Shown: positions 4,434 through 38,151 of the stretch, piece after piece
Layout: the number at the start of each line of letters is the position of its first letter
Numbering within the stretch: the stretch's first letter is position 1
Source: Algoriphagus pacificus
GTDB lineage: Bacteria; Bacteroidota; Bacteroidia; Cytophagales; Cyclobacteriaceae
Reading direction: 5' to 3'
Assembly: GCF_017254845.1 (NCBI RefSeq)
Contig: NZ_JAFKCU010000001.1
Location: 248,001-312,000, forward strand
DNA length: 64,000 bases
Notes under the pieces: generated by a model
The model's input: only the letters and a program-made list of their open reading frames with translations
The model's database searches: none
What the model was told of the DNA's origin: nothing
Translations under genes and position numbers: made by a program

Positions 4434-5891
4434 TTATAGTCCATTTGGATCAAACTTGTAAAGATTCATAGGGAAACTACCAGCTATTGTAATGTCAGGC
4501 ATTCTCATAATATATAGGAAGCCATCTTTTTCAAAATGAGCCACAGTTATATCTTGTGCCGTTCTAGGAATATCATTTTTTGATATCCATGTCATGGTGT
4601 TCAGATTTAACTCCCACAAATCAGTCGTTCTTCTATATAAACCAACATAGGCTTTGTCCCCAATGACTTGCCCCATTCCATACCCTTGGCCTAGGTTACC
4701 TGGGTAAGTGGAAACAGAATTCCATTGCCCAGAACTCACATCATACTTCCAAAGAATCGCCTCGGAATCCACCACATAAAAATTTCCTTCGTATACGAAA
4801 TTTGCATTGGTTGCTGAAAACTCGACTGGACTTTCAGGAAGATTTTGCCAAGCCTTAGTGGATGGATTATATTTTCTTAATGCTAAAGGGTTTCCTTCTT
4901 TACTACCCAAAACGTATAAACTTCCATTGGACTCAAAAGCAATTGATTCTCTACTTTCAAATGGTAAATCCGGAAGCCTTTCAAAACCCCCTCCGTTTAT
5001 TCTCCAGAAAGACTGATTAATTGTATAGGGATTGGGAGTAAGCGCTGCAGTTCCTCCTCCGATATAATTATTTGTAAAAAATGCAAATGACCTTGAACTT
5101 CCTGGAAATGAAACTTCTTTCCATGATTTAGAGCCTAAATCAAACTGCTGAAACTTTGAATAAAAACTATTTTTTGAAACGGTCCCAAGCCCAATAATTA
5201 GACCATTGGAGGCATTATAAAAAACATTATCGTAGATTCTAACTGATTCAGGGAATTTAGAAATCAGTTCATAAGTACCTATTTGATATTCAAAGGAAGT
5301 AGGGAATTCTAGGGTTTTGTCTTGAACTACCACCCTTATTGGAACAGATACATTGCTAGCACTAGGAATTGTAACCTTAATTCTAGATTCAAAATCCAGA
5401 GAATTTATAACTGCTTCATTTTCTCCAAAAAACACTTTTGTGTCAGCTGTGAAGTTTTGACCGATTATATCTAAGGTTTGACCAACAGCTCCGAATGTAG
5501 GAGAGAAACTTTCCAAAACTGGACCAAGTGTGTTCAATTGAATTACGTTTCCAAACTGGATCTCTCCTCCTAGATCCATAAACGTCTTCGCGAAATAGCT
5601 CTTGGAATTTGTCAACCCGTTTGCCTCCCCGATGAATCTACCAGGACCATCCTTAGGACCAAGAGAAATTATAATTGGCGAAGCAAAAGCCTCATCTTCC
5701 GAAAGATAAAAACCATGATCGGCAACAGTGATTGTTTGATTTGTTATTAAGCGACCAAGAAGTCTGACATTTTCGGCACTTGTGTAAAGCACCTCTTCTG
5801 TAACCAAAACAGTTGTTTCGGATTCTTCTTCAGTACAAGCCCATCCCAAAAAAAGCACAATTAAAATGCTCAGAGATAGAAGTTTTCGCAT
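4434..5891 (-). CDS. IPT/TIG and kelch-repeat surface lipoprotein
   Basis: 485 residues beginning with a lipoprotein signal (LIVLFLGWAC, Cys19) followed by an acidic TEEESE tract, a pattern reminiscent of surface-export signals of Bacteroidota lipoproteins. Residues about 125-200 form an IPT/TIG immunoglobulin-like fold (SFSPTFGAVGQTLDIIGQNF, then ITIPSASN-like spacing). The C-terminal 280 residues contain repeated W/Y-rich kelch-like blades (SKSWKEVSFPGSSR, TKAWQNLPESP, SGQWNSVSTYPG, MTWISKNDIPR), predicting a beta-propeller. It is the first gene of the operon leading into the TonB receptor, which suggests a surface binding partner of that receptor. No catalytic signature is visible. Confidence 0.82.
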   Translation of the reverse strand: MRKLLSLSILIVLFLGWACTEEESETTVLVTEEVLYTSAENVRLLGRLITNQTITVADHGFYLSEDEAFASPIIISLGPKDGPGRFIGEANGLTNSKSYFAKTFMDLGGEIQFGNVIQLNTLGPVLESFSPTFGAVGQTLDIIGQNFTADTKVFFGENEAVINSLDFESRIKVTIPSASNVSVPIRVVVQDKTLEFPTSFEYQIGTYELISKFPESVRIYDNVFYNASNGLIIGLGTVSKNSFYSKFQQFDLGSKSWKEVSFPGSSRSFAFFTNNYIGGGTAALTPNPYTINQSFWRINGGGFERLPDLPFESRESIAFESNGSLYVLGSKEGNPLALRKYNPSTKAWQNLPESPVEFSATNANFVYEGNFYVVDSEAILWKYDVSSGQWNSVSTYPGNLGQGYGMGQVIGDKAYVGLYRRTTDLWELNLNTMTWISKNDIPRTAQDITVAHFEKDGFLYIMRMPDITIAGSFPMNLYKFDPNGL

Positions 5892-5920
5892 GAGTTTTTT
5901 CTTGTAATAAATTTATTAAC

Positions 5921-5950
5921 CAAAAATATAGAAATACTGATCACAAACAA
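5921..5950 (-). promoter_or_regulatory. Bacteroidota-type promoter of the TIG/TonB-receptor operon
   Basis: On the minus strand, TTG (5950-5948), a 19-bp spacer and TATTTTTG (5928-5921) match the Bacteroidota TTG-N19-TAnnTTTG consensus. The -7 box ends about 30 bp before the ATG at 5891. The rest of 5892-6127 is AT-rich with no gene seen. Confidence 0.5.
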
Positions 5951-6127
5951 TTTTTAGCTGGAATCAAATTCTAAAAATTCGGAATTGAAAGGTCAAAAAT
6001 TACTGATTTCACAATGAAAAAGTGTTTTAATTGAAAAATATGGGTCAAAAGCAGATAATTAATATCAAATTTTTGCACCTTTTTTTAACCTTAGGGTATT
6101 TAAAAAATCAAAACCTCGGAAACTCAA

Positions 6128-6835: not shown

Positions 6836-7485
6836 CAGGTTCTGGCTTTGCTAAAAAAGCTCATATTAAAGCGTGGCTTATCATCCATCACATTCAATTC
6901 ATCCTCTGAAACCCGCTTCACGCTTTCTATTGTATAAAAGGCCTTCTCATCCAGGCTTTTCACTTTTTCTATGAATTTTGCCAAGGCCTCTCTTTTCATC
7001 ACTGTAAAGGTCAACTGAACTTTGCCATACCTTCCTTCCGCTCCTACATTGGTAAATCTAAAGTCTTCATTTTTCATGTATTCCATGAGCTCAGGGTTTG
7101 GCTTAGGAGTGATAATTCGTACTAAAACTCGACCTAACGCTAATTTTTCTTCAAAATACATCCCAACGTAAGTTCCTGTTCCAAAACCTGCAGCATAGGC
7201 GACATAAGACATGGGATTATTGATATTCTGAAAAATCTGCCCGATGGCCAACAACCAAATTAATGCCTCAAAAAACCCAAGAAACGGAGCAATATTCTTT
7301 TTCCCATTCATCATAAACATGATTCGAAGGGTATTGATCGAAACATCGCCAACACGTGCACAAAAAATCAAAAGCGGCATTATCAGATAGTTGAATAAAT
7401 TTTCTGAAATCCCCAGTGAAAGCATGAAATCTTGCATTTTTTTCGGTTTTGGTTGTCCAGGCAAAATTACATGGTAATCCTCCAT
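6835..7485 (-). CDS. DUF2179/UPF0316-type membrane protein
   Basis: 216 residues. About three hydrophobic segments lie in residues 30-110 (LIMPLLIFCARVGDVSINTL, APFLGFFEALIWLLAIGQIF, MSYVAYAAGFGTGTYVGMYF). A soluble C-terminal DUF2179-like alpha/beta domain follows (RVLVRIITPKPNPELMEYMK ... QLTFTVMKREALAKFIEKVK). The order membrane domain then DUF2179 matches the UPF0316 family, whose biochemical function is not established. The C-terminus overlaps the trmN start by one base and the MFS gene lies 33 bp upstream, consistent with one transcript. Confidence 0.78.
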   Translation of the reverse strand: MEDYHVILPGQPKPKKMQDFMLSLGISENLFNYLIMPLLIFCARVGDVSINTLRIMFMMNGKKNIAPFLGFFEALIWLLAIGQIFQNINNPMSYVAYAAGFGTGTYVGMYFEEKLALGRVLVRIITPKPNPELMEYMKNEDFRFTNVGAEGRYGKVQLTFTVMKREALAKFIEKVKSLDEKAFYTIESVKRVSEDELNVMDDKPRFNMSFFSKART

Positions 7486-7518
7486 AAAAGAAGGAAAGAA
7501 GAGGATATTGGCAAATAC

Positions 7519-8685
7519 TTAGATCTTCCTGTCTCTACCTGCGGCCATCCCAAATCCAGTGAACAATACGGAGAAAAAGACCAAAAACCAGATTAAAATA
7601 TTCCAGGAACCGAAAAGGTCCAAAGAAATGCCAAAAAGCATGGGACCCAAGGCGGCTAAATAATATCCAGAAGATTGAACCATTGCCGATAATTTGGCTG
7701 TAGTCTGATCTTCTGAAGTCCGCAATGAAATCAAAGTATAGGCAATACTTAAACTTGCTCCCATACCAAGTCCAATAATAGTCAGGGACAAATAGGTGAT
7801 CCATTCGGTCTCGAAAAAGAGCCCAAGAAATCCAAAAATATAGGCTATACCTACAATCAGAACAACTCCTGATTGTTGTCTGAGTCTGATCAAAACCGAA
7901 GGTGCAAAATAAGACCCTATTAAAGAAACCAGCTGCATGATGGATGAAACAGCTCCGGCTTCTACTGGCGACCAACCTCTAGCTACCAACATATCTGGCA
8001 ACCAAGCTGTCAGTGTGAAATACATTACGGATTGGCAACCCATAAAAATCGTTATTTGCCAAGCCAATTTTGATTTCCAGACGTTTTTTGCTGGTTTGGA
8101 TTGAGTGTCCATTCCTGCTTTTGGACGACTTAGTTGAGGAATCCAGATAAGTAATGCCAAAACCATGAAGATTGCCCAAAAGGCTAAGGAGCCTCTCCAA
8201 CCGAAATTCAAATCAACAGCGATTGGTACGGAAGTTCCAGCAGCAATAGCAGCAAATAAAGACATCATTGTTGCCAATAAAGCTGTCATTAATCCCAGCT
8301 TTTGGGGCAGTCGAACTTTAATTAAAGGGATCAATAGGACATTCGCGATCACTATTCCTATCCCAGTCATAGCTGTCCCAAGCAACAACAATTCAATTCC
8401 TCCTACTACACGAAGTATGACTCCAGCGGTCAAAATAGAAATGCCTAAAAAAACGGCTCTTCCCATTCCCATTTTCTTTCCGATAGCCGGAGCAAAAAGG
8501 GAAAAAGTAGCAAAGGTTAATAAGGGTAAAGTTGTCAGGAATCCGGCCAGCCCATTTGATAATCCTAAATCCTCACGAATAAATGGAATCAAAGGCCCAA
8601 CGGAGGCTATTGAAGTCCTCAAATTAATGGAAATCAATAAGATCCCTGTAATTAAGAGAGACTGGGAAGATGGAGATTTTATCAA
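7519..8685 (-). CDS. Major facilitator superfamily transporter, CynX/NimT-like
   Basis: 388 residues with about 12 hydrophobic segments and the two-halves arrangement of MFS carriers. The N-terminal stretch LRTSIASVGPLIPFIREDLG followed by GLAGFLTTLPLLTFATFSLF is typical of the CynX/NimT (cyanate / 2-nitroimidazole) group, with ALGPMLFGISLDLFGSWN at the end of the second half. It acts in the inner membrane, but the substrate cannot be deduced. It lies between hemH and the DUF2179 gene on the same strand with short gaps. Confidence 0.83.
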   Translation of the reverse strand: MIKSPSSQSLLITGILLISINLRTSIASVGPLIPFIREDLGLSNGLAGFLTTLPLLTFATFSLFAPAIGKKMGMGRAVFLGISILTAGVILRVVGGIELLLLGTAMTGIGIVIANVLLIPLIKVRLPQKLGLMTALLATMMSLFAAIAAGTSVPIAVDLNFGWRGSLAFWAIFMVLALLIWIPQLSRPKAGMDTQSKPAKNVWKSKLAWQITIFMGCQSVMYFTLTAWLPDMLVARGWSPVEAGAVSSIMQLVSLIGSYFAPSVLIRLRQQSGVVLIVGIAYIFGFLGLFFETEWITYLSLTIIGLGMGASLSIAYTLISLRTSEDQTTAKLSAMVQSSGYYLAALGPMLFGISLDLFGSWNILIWFLVFFSVLFTGFGMAAGRDRKI

Positions 8686-32050: not shown

Positions 32051-32090
32051 GATTGTTGATGTCAGATTTCAGATATCAGATGTTTTCCAT

Positions 32091-32131
32091 AAACCCTTCA
32101 GATGTTAGAAATCTGAAGGGTTTTGTTTTTT
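32091..32131 (+). terminator. Strong terminator after the SGNH hydrolase gene
   Basis: A 13-bp stem AAACCCTTCAGAT (32091-32103) / ATCTGAAGGGTTT (32111-32123) with a 7-nt loop is followed by a T-rich run. It argues against a gene start upstream of it for the next protein. Confidence 0.85.
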
Positions 32132-32196
32132 CCTATTATCAAGAACCTTTATTTTTTATGAGGAAATCACTTTATTTCCTGCTAAAGACGGTTAAA

Positions 32197-32610
32197 ATGA
32201 TGCTAAATAAAAAGCTACTAATTGCTTTCGTGCTTTATCAATTTTCAGTGGATTTTGTTTTTGGACAAAATAAATCAGATTTGGATAGCCTAAGGACTTA
32301 TTACCAGAAGTGTCTAGATAAAGGTCAGTTTATGTCTGACTGTGCTCGAAACTATTTTTATACAATTAATTCAATGGATTCAATCATTTATAATAAACTA
32401 TATAATTCCTTGGATTTGAATAATAGACAAAATTTAAAAAAGGAACAGAATGATTGGCTTAAGAAAAAGGAAGAATTCCTAGAAATGGGACAAAAAAAAT
32501 ACGAAGCAAGCAATGGAGGTTTGGATGAATTGATGTTCATGTACGATAATAATGCAGCTTTTATTGAAAAACGAATCTTAGACTTGATAAATCGGATGAA
32601 AAATAAATAG
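32197..32610 (+). CDS. Secreted LprI/DUF1311-like protein
   Basis: 137 residues from ATG 32197, which gives a signal peptide (MMLNKKLLIAFVLYQFSVDF then VFGQ); longer in-frame starts would cross a terminator. The mature protein has the DUF1311 pattern: an early Cys (YYQKCLDKG), a second Cys (MSDCARNYFY), then NKLYNSLDLNNRQNLKKEQN and DWLKKKEEF. LprI-type proteins include lysozyme inhibitors, but many members are uncharacterised. The base composition is AT-rich like the following module, in contrast to the SGNH gene upstream, so it may belong to the accessory region. Confidence 0.72.
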   Translation: MMLNKKLLIAFVLYQFSVDFVFGQNKSDLDSLRTYYQKCLDKGQFMSDCARNYFYTINSMDSIIYNKLYNSLDLNNRQNLKKEQNDWLKKKEEFLEMGQKKYEASNGGLDELMFMYDNNAAFIEKRILDLINRMKNK

Positions 32611-32744
32611 GATTAGCTTGCTACAGTTAAAATGCTTTTAGTTTTCGTGGTAAATGATATCTTTAGGAATGAATTTTTATCTGCTTTACCAAAATACATC
32701 TTTTTCAAAGTTCCATTCTCAAAAAAAAAGTGCCGTTCATTTTC

Positions 32745-32762
32745 CTGCTTCTCAAGAAGCAG
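32745..32762. repeat. 8-bp inverted repeat in the gap before the protease gene
   Basis: CTGCTTCT (32745-32752) and AGAAGCAG (32755-32762) are exact inverted copies separated by CA. It is short and lies in AT-rich non-coding DNA (32611-32876) where I see no gene or consensus promoter. It could be an operator. Confidence 0.4.
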
Positions 32763-32839
32763 CGAATAAAAAATGCAAAATGTGTATTTATCCAGCTTAT
32801 TTTGACAGATATATAAACCAAAGGCATATAAATAAATAA

Positions 32840-32846
32840 GTTAGGT
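32840..32846 (+). other. GTTAGGT, attC R'-like left end of the accessory module
   Basis: GTTAGGT fits the integron recombination core GTTRRRY (R' box), in the orientation in which a cassette would begin at 32841. The remaining elements of an attC site (R'', L'', L') are not recognisable upstream, so this is at most a boundary remnant. Confidence 0.35.
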
Positions 32847-32876
32847 GCAATGCGAAAACATAAATATTGATTCATC

Positions 32877-33674
32877 ATGTATCAAGAAGAAAAATGGAAA
32901 GAATTATGTAACGATACACTAGTACGGATGAAGGATCATGTGGAGCCATTCATTACACCAATTTGGAAATATAATGATGTAGATGAAAAAGACATTAAAC
33001 TGCATGGCTCAGGTTCATATTTCGAAAATCCTTATGGACAGTTTATCATTACAAATGAACATGTAGCAAAATACAACCAAGGTTTTCGACTAACTCATTC
33101 ATTCAAGGGAAGCCAAGACATTTTAAATATCCGTAATCCATTCCTTAGCGAGTTACCACCAATTGATACAGCTATAAGTAGAATTGATAATGATATATGG
33201 TTAGATCATAAATGTGAAGGAGAGGCTATTCCATTAAAAAGATTCGCAACTAAGCATTCTCCTGTTGAGAACGAATTACTTTTTTTTGCCGGCTTCAGTG
33301 GAGAAAGATCTCGAGTATTATTTGAAAATTGTTTCAGTCGTGGAACACCATTTTTAACGCAAGAATGTCCATTTCCTGTTTCCATAGAGAAGCAGGCTGA
33401 TCAAACTTATCACATGTCTATTCCTTATCCACCTGAATTAGCAGAAACTAGTGATTCTTCTGAACCACTTCCTGACCCACACGGGTTTAGTGGGTCCTTG
33501 TTGTGGAATACTAAACGCATTGAATGCAAAAAAAAAGAAATTGAATGGTCTCCATCGATGGCAGAAGTTACTGCAATAATCTGGGGATGGCCATCCTCTA
33601 GTGTTTGCATTCTAGCAACAAAAATTGAGCATATCAACCTGGAAGAAATGACTCGAGAATATCAAAAGTTATAA
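32877..33674 (+). CDS. Trypsin-like serine protease
   Basis: 265 residues, no signal peptide, so cytoplasmic. The chymotrypsin-fold triad is visible: His62 in GQFIITNEHV, Asp97 in PPIDTAISRID and Ser205 in PHGFSGSLLW (GFSGS in place of GDSGG). There is no PDZ domain or transmembrane anchor, unlike housekeeping DegP/HtrA. The gene sits 10 bp upstream of a HEPN-domain gene in an AT-rich block, and the two are almost certainly co-transcribed. Proteases next to HEPN effectors suggest an immune or toxin module in which proteolysis could control the effector; that role is inference. Confidence is high in the fold and low in the function. Confidence 0.8.
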   Translation: MYQEEKWKELCNDTLVRMKDHVEPFITPIWKYNDVDEKDIKLHGSGSYFENPYGQFIITNEHVAKYNQGFRLTHSFKGSQDILNIRNPFLSELPPIDTAISRIDNDIWLDHKCEGEAIPLKRFATKHSPVENELLFFAGFSGERSRVLFENCFSRGTPFLTQECPFPVSIEKQADQTYHMSIPYPPELAETSDSSEPLPDPHGFSGSLLWNTKRIECKKKEIEWSPSMAEVTAIIWGWPSSSVCILATKIEHINLEEMTREYQKL

Positions 33675-33684
33675 ATCGAATACA

Positions 33685-34545
33685 TTGGAATTCATAACTA
33701 GAGGGACATATTACATTTTAGGTAACGGAATTGATTTCGAGGGTGACGAAATTGAGATATTACCTTATTTGAAGATTAGAAAAGTAAAAAAACTATCTGT
33801 TTTCGAACTTGCGAGTTTAGGAGCAAAAGGTTTTAGCCAGTGGTCATTAATTGAGCCTTTTTGCTATCTAAAAAACAATTTTGAAATAATAAGTTCCGAA
33901 AACGAATCCACATTTGGATATGACATTCTCAATAGAGCTTGGCTCTTAAATACATTACTAGTTCTTAGAAAAAAAACAAACGTTAATTCAGTTGCTCTTC
34001 TTAATCAATCTTGGAATAATTTAAAGAATGTAAATGATGTCAAAGCTAACCTTTGCGATTATCATGTCAAAATGCTGAAAACAGAAAGCTTAAATGAATT
34101 AAAAGTTGAAAGTGCTGATCTTAAATGGATAAAAGTCCATTATGAAAATGCAAATACTTTGGCTTTTGAAAATGAAAAATTCAGATACGCTTTGGAAGTA
34201 ATCAACTCTTGGCGATACTCTGTAGATATTAAGAGTGCAATTGCAATTTTATGGGCTGCAATAGAAAGTATAGTGGATGTATCGATTGAAATTAGTTATA
34301 GATTATCATTAAGCATTTCATCTCTCTTATGTGAAAGAGGAGATGAAAGATTTAAGAAATTTAAGGAAATAAAAAAATTATATGGATTACGCTCTAAAGT
34401 AGTTCACGGTGCAAATTTAAAGGAGTCCGAAATTGAGAAAGCCCTAGTTGAATCTTTCAAGTTACTTTCTGAATTGATAGTTCATATGATTGAAAAGAAT
34501 AAATTGGTTAAATCTTCGGATTTTGAAAATGCAATATTTAAATAA
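33685..34545 (+). CDS. HEPN-domain protein (ApeA-like), predicted RNase effector
   Basis: 286 residues if translation starts at the TTG at 33685; no in-frame ATG occurs before residue 130, so the start is uncertain (ATC or ATA codons just upstream are alternatives). The C-terminal 115 residues form the HEPN four-helix pattern: AIAILWAAIESIVDVSIEIS, then KEIKKLYGLRSKVVHGANL carrying R236 and H241, i.e. the RxxxxH motif of HEPN ribonucleases, followed by EKALVESFKLLSELIVHMIE. The first 160 residues have no recognised fold. HEPN proteins with this motif are commonly RNA-cleaving toxins or abortive-infection effectors. The upstream trypsin-like protease gene is its likely partner. Confidence 0.8.
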   Translation: MEFITRGTYYILGNGIDFEGDEIEILPYLKIRKVKKLSVFELASLGAKGFSQWSLIEPFCYLKNNFEIISSENESTFGYDILNRAWLLNTLLVLRKKTNVNSVALLNQSWNNLKNVNDVKANLCDYHVKMLKTESLNELKVESADLKWIKVHYENANTLAFENEKFRYALEVINSWRYSVDIKSAIAILWAAIESIVDVSIEISYRLSLSISSLLCERGDERFKKFKEIKKLYGLRSKVVHGANLKESEIEKALVESFKLLSELIVHMIEKNKLVKSSDFENAIFK

Positions 34546-34549
34546 AAAC

Positions 34550-34556
34550 ACCTAAC
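34550..34556 (-). other. ACCTAAC, attC R''-like right end of the accessory module
   Basis: ACCTAAC matches RYYYAAC (integron R'') and is the exact inverted complement of GTTAGGT at 32840. It is followed by AAGGTGTATAGTGCATAC, but no second GTTRRRY is found in the next 500 bp, so a complete attC is not present. Confidence 0.35.
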
Positions 34557-34600
34557 AAGGTGTATAGTGCATACCCCCACTGGGAGTAGGAACTTTGACT

Positions 34601-34646
34601 AAGCGTAGACCTCGATAGCAATCGGGTGCATCTACGCTTTTTTTTC
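34601..34646 (+). terminator. Terminator of the protease-HEPN operon, REP-like hairpin
   Basis: The outer stem AAGCGTAGA (34601-34609) / TCTACGCTT (34631-34639) encloses an inner stem CTCGAT-AGCA-ATCGGG and is followed by a T-run to 34645. The inner CTCGATAGCAATCGGG resembles palindromes that I recall as repeated in Bacteroidota genomes. From 34647 to 34748 I see no feature. Confidence 0.75.
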
Positions 34647-34748
34647 ATGGAATTATAGAAGAAATTATTGAGCCTTTGCGTCTTCGGGGGAGTCTTTTTA
34701 GCCTTTTGCGTTATTTTTGGCAACAAAGAAACACTCCAACACTCTCCC

Positions 34749-35042
34749 GAATGTGTTCAACACATTAATTATCAACTCAATCACTTAACGGAATGTGTTT
34801 ACCACTTTAATTAAAGTCTCAAAGAGTCTCGGGAATGTGTTCAACACATTAATTAATATCCCAATGACTTAAAGGAAGGTGTTTATCACATTAATTATCC
34901 TCTCAAACACTTTACGGAATGTGTTCATCACTATAATTAAGGACTCAATGACTCTCCGGAATGTGTTCAACACATTAATTAATGTCCCAAAGACTCAAGG
35001 GAGAGTCCTAAACACTTAAATGAGGGAAGCAAGGAATTTCCG
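34749..35042. repeat. Array of seven 42-bp units built on a 17-bp palindrome
   Basis: Units start at 34749, 34791, 34833, 34875, 34917, 34959 and 35001 with no indel; the seventh is strongly degenerate. Each of the first six begins GAATGTGTT. Units 1, 3 and 6 carry the perfect palindrome AATGTGTTCAACACATT; units 2, 4 and 5 differ at a few bases in the right arm. The second half of each unit follows a CTCAA.GACT.-like pattern. All three forward frames and the reverse frames contain stops within one or two units, so it is not coding. It lies between two converging terminators, so it is probably not transcribed. 42 bp equals four turns of B-DNA, placing all palindromes on one face. Confidence 0.9.
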
Positions 35043-35056
35043 GAACTTTTGAGCAT

Positions 35057-35085
35057 AAAAAAGCCGGAACTTTCGTCCCGGCTTT
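35057..35085 (-). terminator. Terminator of the 35104-35583 gene
   Basis: An 8-bp stem AAAGCCGG (35060-35067) / CCGGCTTT (35078-35085) is followed on the minus strand by a T-run. It bounds the right side of the palindrome array. Confidence 0.8.
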
Positions 35086-35103
35086 CGAGCGTTAAGCAAC
35101 TTA

Positions 35104-35583
35104 TCAGGCTGCTGCGGGGTCACCGCCCCGACGTTTGGACCGCTTCTCGTAGCGAACCCGCAGGTCCTCATAGATAGGCTTGGCATTCGGTAAATTCGCT
35201 TTTACTGCCTGCTGAACAGAGGCATAATAAATATTGCCTTGGTCCAGAAGCTCGGCTCCTGCTTCCATCAGCGTATCATCCAAGTTGGTGACTATCTGAT
35301 TTAGAATATTATACAATGGCCCAAGCTGGTTGATCAATGTCCAATCTTTTTTCATTTCATCCACCTTATTAAAAGGCGAAATCAACTCGGGATTGGTGTC
35401 TAGGTAATCCATGACCTTTCCTACAAAAGGTCTGGACGCTTCCCCCATCTTATTGAGCGATCTTCGCTCATCTACTGTCAGGGAAATTAGATTAGGGTCC
35501 AACTTGGCCACTAATACGGCGATCGCATCTTTGATCGCTTGGAGATCTGCCGGTGAGATCTCTACGGAAACTTTGTTATCCAT
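35104..35583 (-). CDS. Conserved helical protein of unknown function
   Basis: 159 residues, soluble, mainly alpha-helical. Visible segments are SVEISPADLQAIKDAIAVLV, LTVDERRSLNKMGEASRPFV (a conserved-looking block), VMDYLDTNPEL, LGPLYNILNQIVTNLDDTLM and a basic C-terminus RYEKRSKRRGGDPAAA. Base composition is more GC-rich than the neighbouring accessory block. I do not recognise a family with known function. It is monocistronic and ends in a good terminator next to the palindrome array. Confidence 0.75.
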   Translation of the reverse strand: MDNKVSVEISPADLQAIKDAIAVLVAKLDPNLISLTVDERRSLNKMGEASRPFVGKVMDYLDTNPELISPFNKVDEMKKDWTLINQLGPLYNILNQIVTNLDDTLMEAGAELLDQGNIYYASVQQAVKANLPNAKPIYEDLRVRYEKRSKRRGGDPAAA

Positions 35584-35969
35584 AAAAAAAGAAGTTAATA
35601 ATGAAAGAATAGTTAAAAACGTACTAAAAGCTAAGTAGAAGAAATATAAATACCAAGCATTTAGTCGAAAAATATTAAGCCTCTAGTTAAGATTTATTTC
35701 ACTGGCTATAAATGACTTACACTTACTCTCTGCAGGAGTATTAGTGTTCTTCGCGGTAAAAAAGAAAATTTGATAGTATAAAAATCTCCTGTTCTGTGAG
35801 ATCCAGACCACAGCGACATTGGTTTGAAGCTGAGCGACTTAGCCTCTGAAACCCTAAAAAATAAAGTTCAAAGGGGGTATTGTATTATGTCTGCAAAATG
35901 AATAAATAGCGCGATGTTTACCCAAAGAAAAAAATTGGAGGGTAACAGCTAACTCAATCATTTAGCAAA
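35584..35969. other. 386-bp gene-free interval
   Basis: This lies between divergently transcribed genes and must hold promoters for both, but neither strand shows an exact TAnnTTTG box at a suitable distance. There is no RNA gene, repeat or hairpin that I can support. It is AT-rich near the edges and more balanced around 35800-35870. Confidence 0.5.
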
Positions 35970-36557
35970 ATGCTGAAACACTTAATTTTATCCTGGCTGT
36001 TACTCACTCTTGCTGGGTATTCCTTTGCTCAAACCACTGCACCTGGTTACTATATTACTTTGAATAATGACAGTATTCCAGCGCAAATCAAAATGCCAAA
36101 ATCTGTTTTTGGATCCGTTGACTTTTCAAAATTCCTATTCAAAGTAGATGTACAGGATAGTAACAACAGCATGAAGAAATTTAAACCTGAGGATATCAAG
36201 CGCTTTGGATTTATTTATAATGATGAGAATTTCACCCTCTATTCAAAACCAATTTTTACAGAAACTACCTTGAGGTTTTTACAGCCGACAGTCCTTGGAG
36301 AAAAGTCTAGTCTCTATCAATTTCAGACATACGACCAAAATGGGGTTCCACTTGGCATTTTTTATACATTAGAAAAAAGTGACGGCACCTACGCATTCCT
36401 TACTACCGGATTAAAAAGCTTAGATAAATTTAAAGAATTGCTAAAAGAATTTTACGAGGAAAATCCTGACCTACTCCAACTGATCGATTCTAGATTTACA
36501 GAGCGAAAGTCAGTTCAGGCAGACATGGTCGAGCTTGTCGAAACGGCAAATAAATAA
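35970..36557 (+). CDS. Secreted protein of unknown function
   Basis: 195 residues with a signal peptide (ends AGYSFAQ, about residue 21). The mature part begins PGYYITLNNDSIPAQIKMPK and includes KKFKPEDIKRFGFIYND, a pattern seen in several uncharacterised Bacteroidota secreted proteins. The last codons (VELVETANK) are encoded by GTCGAGCTTGTCGAAAC, which resembles a widespread short repeat in this phylum, so the C-terminus may have been extended by repeat insertion. No catalytic motif is visible. It is convergent with the sulfatase gene. Confidence 0.7.
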   Translation: MLKHLILSWLLLTLAGYSFAQTTAPGYYITLNNDSIPAQIKMPKSVFGSVDFSKFLFKVDVQDSNNSMKKFKPEDIKRFGFIYNDENFTLYSKPIFTETTLRFLQPTVLGEKSSLYQFQTYDQNGVPLGIFYTLEKSDGTYAFLTTGLKSLDKFKELLKEFYEENPDLLQLIDSRFTERKSVQADMVELVETANK

Positions 36558-36582
36558 CCTGTTTTTCGAAGAAGCTTCTCTA

Positions 36583-38151
36583 TTATTCCCCTATAAAACT
36601 AATTTGCTTCCATTCTCCCTCAATGGGATCATTTTGCTGAGCAGCGCCTGGAGTACTTCTACCTTCTTTGATGTATTTGATCAAAAGAGCTTTCATTGCC
36701 GCTACTTTTTCAGGATTTTCGGCATAAACATTTGTCTTCTCACCCGGATCGGAAGCTAAAATATAAAGTTGAACATCCGGAAGTTCTTCCTCTGCTGGAT
36801 CCCCTGGTTTCGGAAAACTCCAACCCCCAGAACCTTTAGCCATAATCAGTTTCGAGTCACCTTGACGGATCGCAAAACTTCCATTGATGGAGTGATGAAC
36901 CGTCGCTTCTCTGAATTCTTCAAGCGGATCATCATAATCAAACAGCCTCATTAGACTATAGCTATCTTCCCCTTCATTATCTTTTAATTGATAACCAGTA
37001 ATCTCGGCACTAGTTGCCATCATATCAGTGAGGCATATTGTGTGAGTTCGGGTGGTTCCTGCTTGGATTTTTGAAGGCCATTTTGCGATAAATGGAACGC
37101 GATGACCTCCTTCGTAGGTATCTGCTTTATGTCCTCTATAAATGTAACTTGAAAAATGCCCTGCGGCTTGCATCACATCTAAGCCAGCTGCTGGTGAGCC
37201 ACCATTATCTGAAGTAAAAATCACCAAGGTATTTTCTTCAATCCCAGCTTTTTTAATGGCTTCATTTACCTGACCGACATAATCATCTATCATCATCATA
37301 AAATCCCCAAAAGGTGCCAATCCGCTTTTTCCTTGCCATTCGGCTGGAGGTAAAATTGGTGTATGTGGAGAAGGCAATGCCAAGTAAAGGAAGAAAGGCT
37401 TCTCCTCTTTCGCTTGCTCTTCGATGTACTGAATGGATCTTTGGAAGAAATTGGGAGTAACTTTCTCATGGTCAAAATCCGGAGAAGTCGGACCCTCCCT
37501 CCACCAAGAATACTTGCCCGTATTTACAGTTACCGTGTCAGGAATGGCTGTGGCAGTTCCGTTCTCTACATAGACATAAGGTGCCATATCTAGCGAACCT
37601 GAATGTCCATAGGCATAATCGAAGCCCAGATCATTAGGGGTATGGGTGACAGTTTTGGAAAAATCAATCGCATCAAAATCCTGTGGTTCCCAGCCTTCGC
37701 CTTGATTTTCCTCCCCTTCTTTGATTCCCCAATTCCAACCTAAATGCCACTTTCCAATAAAAGCAGTATGGTATCCCGCATTTTTCATCACATCCGCAAT
37801 CGTGGTCCGCTCGTCTTCGATTAAAGCAGGTGATTTGCCAGTGAGAACCCCACTTTTTAGAGTACTTCTCCAATTATATCTACCCGTCAAAAACCCATAG
37901 CGAGTCGGCGTACAAACAGCTGATGGCGTATGTGCATCCGTAAACTTCATTCCCTCCGCTGCCAATTGATCGATATGTGGAGTTGGGATTTTTCCTTCGG
38001 GATTAAAAGCATGAATGTCTCCATAGCCAAGATCATCTGCCAAGATCACGATGATATTAGGATGATTTGTTTCAGCTTTTTTTTCTTCCTCACAGGAAAA
38101 AAGACCTAAAAGAAATAAAAAAAACAAAGAGAAATTCCACTTTCGGTTCAT
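36583..38151 (-). CDS. Sulfatase lipoprotein (formylglycine-dependent)
   Basis: 522 residues from ATG 38151, which gives a lipoprotein signal ending LLGLFSC (Cys20); a start 33 bases upstream would add a non-signal extension. The sulfatase domain begins PNIIVILADDLGYGD with metal ligands Asp39/Asp40, and AVCTPTRYGFLTGR carries the CxPxR motif in which Cys80 becomes formylglycine. GKWHLG and FTSDNGG are further active-site blocks. It desulfates a glycan or aryl ester in the periplasm or at the surface. The GH76-type gene lies 71 bp upstream on the same strand, suggesting joint polysaccharide degradation. Maturation requires a sulfatase-modifying enzyme that is not in this window. Confidence 0.92.
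   Translation of the reverse strand: MNRKWNFSLFFLFLLGLFSCEEEKKAETNHPNIIVILADDLGYGDIHAFNPEGKIPTPHIDQLAAEGMKFTDAHTPSAVCTPTRYGFLTGRYNWRSTLKSGVLTGKSPALIEDERTTIADVMKNAGYHTAFIGKWHLGWNWGIKEGEENQGEGWEPQDFDAIDFSKTVTHTPNDLGFDYAYGHSGSLDMAPYVYVENGTATAIPDTVTVNTGKYSWWREGPTSPDFDHEKVTPNFFQRSIQYIEEQAKEEKPFFLYLALPSPHTPILPPAEWQGKSGLAPFGDFMMMIDDYVGQVNEAIKKAGIEENTLVIFTSDNGGSPAAGLDVMQAAGHFSSYIYRGHKADTYEGGHRVPFIAKWPSKIQAGTTRTHTICLTDMMATSAEITGYQLKDNEGEDSYSLMRLFDYDDPLEEFREATVHHSINGSFAIRQGDSKLIMAKGSGGWSFPKPGDPAEEELPDVQLYILASDPGEKTNVYAENPEKVAAMKALLIKYIKEGRSTPGAAQQNDPIEGEWKQISFIGE

Follow-up and report, generated by a model that had tools for sequence, protein, structure and literature searches.

A trypsin-fold protease gene and a HEPN-motif gene side by side at a variable site of Algoriphagus pacificus

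In a stretch of 64,000 nucleotides from the genome of Algoriphagus pacificus (hereafter the window), a gene for a trypsin-fold serine protease lies immediately upstream of a gene whose product carries a HEPN-type motif near its C-terminus. As explanation of this arrangement, we give about an even chance to a recent juxtaposition of two independently mobile anti-phage genes, one a Tha-like single-gene HEPN RNase and the other a standalone defence protease. The first-pass annotation had regarded them as one module, in which the protease activates, inhibits or is guarded by the HEPN protein, and the gene neighborhoods of the relatives lend this idea no support; judged from sequence comparisons, a two-gene protease-HEPN system is not supported.

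Arrangement of the locus

Both genes are on the forward strand, 10 bp apart, at the positions already given by the first-pass annotation. The protease gene (32877..33674, 265 aa, ATG start, catalytic triad H62/D97/S205) is followed by a 10-bp spacer (33675..33684, from the protease stop to the TTG start of the next gene) and by the HEPN-motif gene (33685..34545, 286 aa, TTG start, R236-S-K-V-V-H241). In frame upstream of this TTG, only an ATC and no ATG, GTG or TTG is present back to the stop at 33649. That the genes are AT-rich relative to their neighbors was correctly noted: the GC content is 36.2% for the protease gene and 29.8% for the HEPN gene, against 39.5% for the whole window and 41-45% in most flanking segments. 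The difference between the two genes themselves (36.2 versus 29.8%) speaks for their juxtaposition.

The strong terminator proposed after the gene pair is also found. The segment 34546-34650 has a folding energy of -32.5 kcal/mol (z = -3.09), with 0/200 shuffles as good, and the stem at 34601-34639, 3' of the HEPN ORF, is followed by a T run, giving an intrinsic-terminator-like structure at 34601..34646 on the forward strand. Because this hairpin is absent from the list of a simple terminator scan and promoter-like sites are at the chance level (10 found versus 9.5 expected), we only infer that the protease and HEPN genes are on a single transcript. Just past the terminator, a 42-bp unit is repeated in tandem about six times, imperfectly, at 34734-34996, and a repeat array 75% identical to it occurs once more in the genome (G000:C49:91290-91527), with flanking genes that are not defence-like by eye. 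No Rfam family matches in the window, and its sole tRNA is 13 kb away from the variable site described below.

The gene pair is located in a strain-variable segment (32051..36594, unstranded) between an SGNH-hydrolase and a sulfatase gene (names assigned by eye), and this site was compared across eight congeners. The flanking genes are separated by about 80 bp in G305 and about 590 bp in G327, and by 2-3 kb of other sequence in G335 (locus L098) and G326 (locus L099); L098 has the window's stretch from 35823 on. The sulfatase match is missing in G322 and G308 with the next block kept, and G324 and G306 have no downstream match within the stretch taken. At this same site, G335 has a gene for a 480-aa ApeA-like HEPN protein (L098:8130-9572), which matches PF18739 at E=4.2e-4 with 21.2 of the 24.4 bits of the cut-off, i.e., under it, and the site in congeners also has AAA-ATPase-like and transposase-like ORFs (by eye). 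Two genes (159 and 195 aa) occupy 35104-36557 of the variable segment in the window, and similar-looking ORFs were seen in L098 (6958-7428 and 5868-6455).

The protease and its relatives

The product of 32877-33674 is, according to its structure model, a trypsin-fold protease with a double beta-barrel. The AlphaFold model, obtained with alignment A6 (29 of the 34 rows of alignment A5), has a pLDDT of 92.9 and a pTM of 0.92, and DegS, HtrA and urokinase were found by Foldseek at a probability of 1.00. There were 327 PDB matches at E<=0.001; among the best 50 of these 327, which are mostly DegS, urokinase and HtrA, the TM-score is about 0.5-0.6 by query length and the rmsd 4-9 Å. A PDB search with the sequence profile gave serine proteases again, weakly (best E 0.0022). 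H62, D97 and S205 are identical in all 34 rows of A5, the window protein among them, and together with the confident model this upholds the trypsin-like protease with a His62/Asp97/Ser205 triad that the first-pass annotation had proposed. A5 consists of the 34 full-length protease rows, window included; absent from it are L032, L033, L038, L055 and L058 (partial, interrupted or with an uncertain start) and L060 and L061 (identical to L048 and L053), L017 is present in alignment A1 only, and L016 and L018 (interrupted protease genes) as well as L056 (short match) were excluded from the alignments. The L017 copy (4941-5525), on the Ti plasmid NC_002377, is missing the stretch with the catalytic Ser, unlike the copy of L014.

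In the model, the protease domain fills the 265-aa protein as one domain, and no fused sensor or enzyme is seen. Hydrophobicity gave neither a signal peptide nor a transmembrane segment; since the N-terminus has no hydrophobic stretch (best 12-aa Kyte-Doolittle mean of 0.1 in the first 36 residues), the cytoplasmic location assigned earlier is reasonable.

The window protease matches no Pfam, PADLOC or NCBIfam model at E<=1. Relatives L026 and L035 match Pfam Trypsin_2 under its cut-off (19.0 and 22.2 of 27.6 bits), and L052 has no Trypsin_2 match. Among the 34 family members, PADLOC gave weak LmuA matches in two (best E 6e-5), PDC-S45 in two, PDC-M35A in one, and two RT-Protease_XI models in one each.

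Relatives of the protease were found in 21 plasmid records, 33 genome-contig loci and 3 viral contigs, two of the last being identical to L048 and L053. The 33 loci came from the alignment-based scan of the genome contigs; a scan of these contigs with the single protein gave no relative. No match was found in the phages searched or in the 290 other genomes sampled in the order, and in the phylum sample (395 genomes) the window's own protease is the only full match; weak partial matches to the profile in 5 of the 394 other phylum genomes (E 1e-5 to 1e-3) are taken as generic trypsin-like proteins. The closest kin found, at 47-52% identity, are L026, L027, L028 and L059, with which the window protease groups in the tree (support 98/96). 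Since the source of these nearest kin is either Pseudomonadota or a viral contig, the window protease gene was probably acquired.

Gene neighborhoods of the protease

Neighboring ORFs were tabulated in 37 protease loci and in L011. A Pfam scan of 24 selected neighbors gave matches in 6/10, 6/10 and 4/4, with eight having none; the matches to Hjc (L035) and DUF2971 (L047) are under the family cut-off. The neighbors found include SIR2_2 (L027, and L033 with a HerA-type ATPase in between), DUF4917 (L040), ThsB_TIR (L043), Mrr_cat (L039), AbiJ_NTD3 (L034), Peptidase_M78 (L053), and HEPN_Toprim_N plus Toprim (L052, with a Toprim_2 match), the last also occurring in L011 by annotation. DUF6988 (L011), GAP1-N1 (L037), DUF3800 (L055) and DUF4238 (L013) neighbors are also present, and in L028 a SacI-type endonuclease is the second gene on, past an apparent methylase (by eye). 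In several loci, e.g., L026, L030, L036, L045, L049 and L057, there is no clear partner. Together with the variable insertion site, the defence-type neighbors bear out the defence context proposed by the first-pass annotation.

The neighbors in L031 and L014 bear RNKVAH and RNRMFH motifs (by eye), and the one in L031 matches Pfam HEPN_RiboL-PSP at just E=0.059. The HEPN_Toprim_N neighbors of L052 and L011 were kept out of the HEPN count because this N-terminal domain is described as being also fused to Toprim and Mrr (PMC3710099) and the L052 protein matches Toprim_2.

The five-member clade which holds the window protease has five different gene contexts, and proteases 70-93% identical to each other (L039/L040, L031/L035, L045/L050 and L042/L044) yet have different neighbors. 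In L042 (5870-7917), from the cyanobacterium Synechococcus, the protease gene (7004-7834) stands alone, resembling an integron cassette, between attC-like sites at 6899-6987 and 7829-7917, of which the second overlaps its stop codon, and a further site is at 5917-6008; these sites were called by a consensus core and fold without an attC model, and none was found in 5 shuffles. This arrangement implies that the protease gene can move by itself. An integron-cassette origin for the protease in general was rejected, as attC-like sites at the protease were found in only one of 15 loci, L042, and in none of the other 14 scanned; L034 has two attC-like matches distant from the protease (0.2 per shuffle), and a stricter attC scan of 40 loci, L042 included, gave none. 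Integron-integrase-like ORFs (by eye) were seen upstream of the protease in L044 (13-594) and L052 (1946-2917), with no attC-like site there.

The HEPN-motif gene

The 286-aa protein consists of an N-terminal part of about 165 aa with no recognised fold and a C-terminal HEPN-type region of approximately residues 165-286. Its C-terminal Y-x2-RS-x3-H motif is invariant in all 13 wider relatives, in which E194, Y233, R236, S237 and H241 are identical. When the window HEPN protein is shuffled, an R-x4-H pattern arises by chance 13% of the time, so it is conservation, and not the motif alone, that counts, and from the invariant motif the protein is likely to be a HEPN protein. Of the HEPN assignment made in the first-pass annotation, the part concerning RSKVVH (R236/H241) thus stands, and a profile match and a good model were not obtained.

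The window protein matches no Pfam family. Among the 13 relatives, HEPN_Apea (E=0.039), Abi_C (0.067) and HepT-like (0.085) matched weakly, in one relative each, and the best match of all was to the unrelated DNAPKcs_CC3 (E=0.035); because an unrelated family scores best, these weak HEPN-family matches are at the chance level and carry little weight. HEPN_Apea was accordingly rejected as the family of the window protein, which does not match it, with just one of the 13 relatives doing so weakly and below the unrelated family. The single-sequence model of the HEPN protein has a pLDDT of 35.8, and searching PDB with profiles built from the HEPN alignments yielded no match. In the hhalign comparison with the ApeA-like set, L110 was used minus its first 72 residues. 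L129 and L130 were excluded from alignment A7.

Close homologues of the HEPN protein were found in three other genomes, G652 (73% identity), G442 (37-43%, depending on the method) and G074 (29%). In the order sample, 8 of the 290 other genomes match it, with the best match in G074 and the others confined mainly to the C-terminal part; the phylum sample has matches in 2 of the 394 other genomes, and the genus of G652 in 2 of 199 genomes, i.e., G652 itself and one weak match. No HEPN relative was found in viral contigs (with the single protein or alignment A4), and neither plasmids nor phages matched the window protein, nor plasmids the G652 protein. In L020 (3767-9429), a distant HEPN relative of 333 aa was observed between type III restriction mod-like and res-like ORFs (by eye), 5 and 18 bp from its neighbors.

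Adjacency of the two genes in other genomes

The window was compared with 41 other protease loci (L011-L015 and L026-L061), of which 39 are distinct, L060 and L061 being repeats of L048 and L053. Among the ORFs of these 41 loci, none is related to the window HEPN protein at E<=0.01, nor does any place in them show a relative of this protein or of five further HEPN homologues at E<=1e-4. In the opposite direction, no protease was found within the 12-14 kb around the three other close HEPN homologues or six wider ones. Recurrent adjacency therefore amounts to 0/41 other protease loci and 0/3 other close HEPN homologues, homologues of the two genes are never neighbors in this sample, the outcome that the first-pass annotation had named as refuting its proposal, and a conserved protease-HEPN pair was rejected. 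This absence of pairing has little power because only three other close HEPN homologues were found; in addition, 5 of 38 protease loci have a flank shorter than 1 kb on one side. Functional coupling is possible, given that the genes are tightly spaced here and HEPN homologues are few.

In G652, the HEPN gene lies 9 bp downstream of an AbiH gene (L109:6549-8687; Pfam PF14253 E=1.7e-24, PADLOC AbiH E=6.1e-7), near a resolvase-like gene (by eye), and the protease profile found nothing in that genome. At the DNA level, 655 of 842 aligned bases are identical between the window and G652, and the alignment (33694-34547) covers practically the HEPN ORF alone. Around G442, G074 and the six wider HEPN relatives, neither protease nor AbiH is present within 12-14 kb. 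Six other loci with AbiH relatives (one on a plasmid, five in genomes) have no HEPN relative within 3.3-8.5 kb, and a conserved AbiH-HEPN pair was also rejected on this basis.

Discussion

The nearest functional model for the HEPN gene appears to be Tha, a tail-activated HEPN anti-phage protein of Staphylococcus aureus prophages, described as an RNase of 301 aa with a C-terminal HEPN R-x4-H (PMC11087260). As far as its description there goes, Tha is alike in layout (301 versus 286 aa, no recognised N-terminal domain, C-terminal R-x4-H), whereas it is prophage-borne and triggered by a tail protein, and the window HEPN gene is preceded by a protease gene. An ApeA-like HEPN protein (PF18739) has a C-terminal motif of the same type, and in a congener (L098) the syntenic site holds such a gene, while the window protein has no match to the PF18739 model. 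In G652, the slot before the 73%-identical HEPN gene is filled by AbiH (PF14253), which was not noted to resemble the protease and is not beside the window HEPN gene.

For the protease family, or for a trypsin-HEPN pair, no description was found in literature titles and abstract openings, a scope with most subscription papers outside it, and the nearest published case is that of Tuck et al. (2025; PMC12799240). As presented there, trypsin-like proteases activate gated metallo-beta-lactamase (MBL) pro-nucleases in Hachiman and AVAST, with the protease fused to another immune protein and co-occurring with the nuclease. The nuclease-protease pairs of Hachiman, AVAST, Lamassu and DRT resemble the window in having a trypsin-like protease beside a (predicted) nuclease gene, and they are said to have been acquired repeatedly by defence loci (PMC12799240). 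They differ in that the protease is fused to HamA, Avs1 or LmuA and its partner is an upstream MBL nuclease, whereas the window protease is standalone and upstream, its partner has a HEPN motif with no Pfam match, and the pairing is not recurrent. Fused and EAD-based systems with trypsin domains have also been reported (Kaur et al., 2020, PMC7159879; 2021, PMC8195603). These NTP-dependent conflict systems (Trypco1/2, EADs) likewise combine trypsin-fold peptidases with effector or signalling domains (TIR and GAP1-N1 contexts), but, in the parts of these papers covered, the peptidases are mostly fused to or beside VMAP, iSTAND, EAD or vWA, none of which was recognised in the window. In the phage-defence papers found, trypsin-like proteases mostly occur as fused domains whose partner is fixed.

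If the two genes are a recent juxtaposition, they would have been joined at the variable insertion site, with one terminator. The HEPN protein would work as a single-gene RNase of abortive infection, much like Tha; an infection cue would be sensed by its N-terminal half, and a dimer of the C-terminal HEPN domain would then cut RNA through R236/H241, so that growth stops. The protease would probably stay latent until a phage-derived cue and then cleave a host or phage protein. Expressed together, the two would add up to a two-layered defence in which the HEPN protein need not be a substrate of the protease. The HEPN fold, RNase activity, sensing, defence function and independent action are what we infer here, and neighbor exchange is read as suggesting independent action. 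Within this joint reading, and with the same even chance, the protease would represent an uncatalogued standalone cytoplasmic trypsin-fold family moving on its own through defence islands, plasmids, prophages and at least one integron-like array. Against juxtaposition, the 10-bp same-strand spacing with one terminator looks like a functional operon, and the HEPN gene may need some partner, as it has an upstream partner at 9 bp in G652 too.

A protease-activated pro-RNase is the rival that takes this spacing at face value: on infection, the protease would cut an inactive HEPN protein and free its RNase, as in the activation of HamM or Avs1a, with HEPN replacing the metallo-beta-lactamase nuclease. 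The published activation of pro-nucleases by trypsin-like proteases (PMC12799240), the effector-type genes that often adjoin protease relatives (SIR2_2, DUF4917, ThsB_TIR, HEPN_Toprim_N, Mrr_cat, AbiJ_NTD3, M78) and the weak PADLOC matches (LmuA in 2/34 members, RT-Protease_XI in 1/34) fit such a mechanism, but the 73%-identical HEPN protein has AbiH as its neighbor in G652, for which the protease profile found nothing, neither protease nor AbiH accompanies two HEPN homologues (G442 and G074), the 265-aa protease has no fused sensor domain, and proteases 70-93% identical have unrelated neighbors, and we regard it as rather doubtful. We take independent action to be more likely than obligatory gating, because neither a protease fusion nor co-occurrence was seen here and a 73%-identical HEPN protein exists without the protease. 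The case also cautions that, at a variable defence site, a distance of 10 bp says little about whether two genes form a functional pair. The occupation of one position, 10 and 9 bp before 73%-identical HEPN genes, by two unrelated genes would also suit a HEPN protein acting as the constant sensor or adaptor of a swapped upstream effector (the protease here, AbiH in G652). We think this unlikely: there are only two such cases, the HEPN genes of G442 and G074 have neither partner, AbiH relatives exist without a HEPN gene, and the invariance of RS-x3-H points to a HEPN domain with catalytic activity of its own.

In a toxin-antitoxin-like arrangement, the protease would degrade a HEPN toxin, and inhibition of the protease by a phage would free the toxin. 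Antitoxin genes often come first, as the protease gene does here. HEPN domains are described as common toxins (PMC3710099), but because HEPN homologues exist without the protease, it is not a needed antitoxin, which makes this arrangement highly unlikely. It is also very unlikely that the two are not defence genes at all but accessory genes, unrelated to each other, caught at a variable site between genes; the AAA-ATPase-like and transposase-like ORFs (by eye) at the site in congeners would agree with this, but G335 has its ApeA-like HEPN gene (under the cut-off) at the same place and protease relatives adjoin defence-type genes.

Even beside the preferred reading of a recent juxtaposition, the partner-exchanging standalone protease family is a more interesting object than the gene pair. 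That this family is a mobile plug-in activator gating varied latent toxins (HEPN, SIR2, TIR, Toprim, Mrr, AbiJ), with partners exchangeable on both sides, is an improbable but attractive idea. A standalone, single-domain protease with a kept triad beside SIR2, TIR, Toprim, Mrr and HEPN-motif genes would extend the theme of defence proteases.
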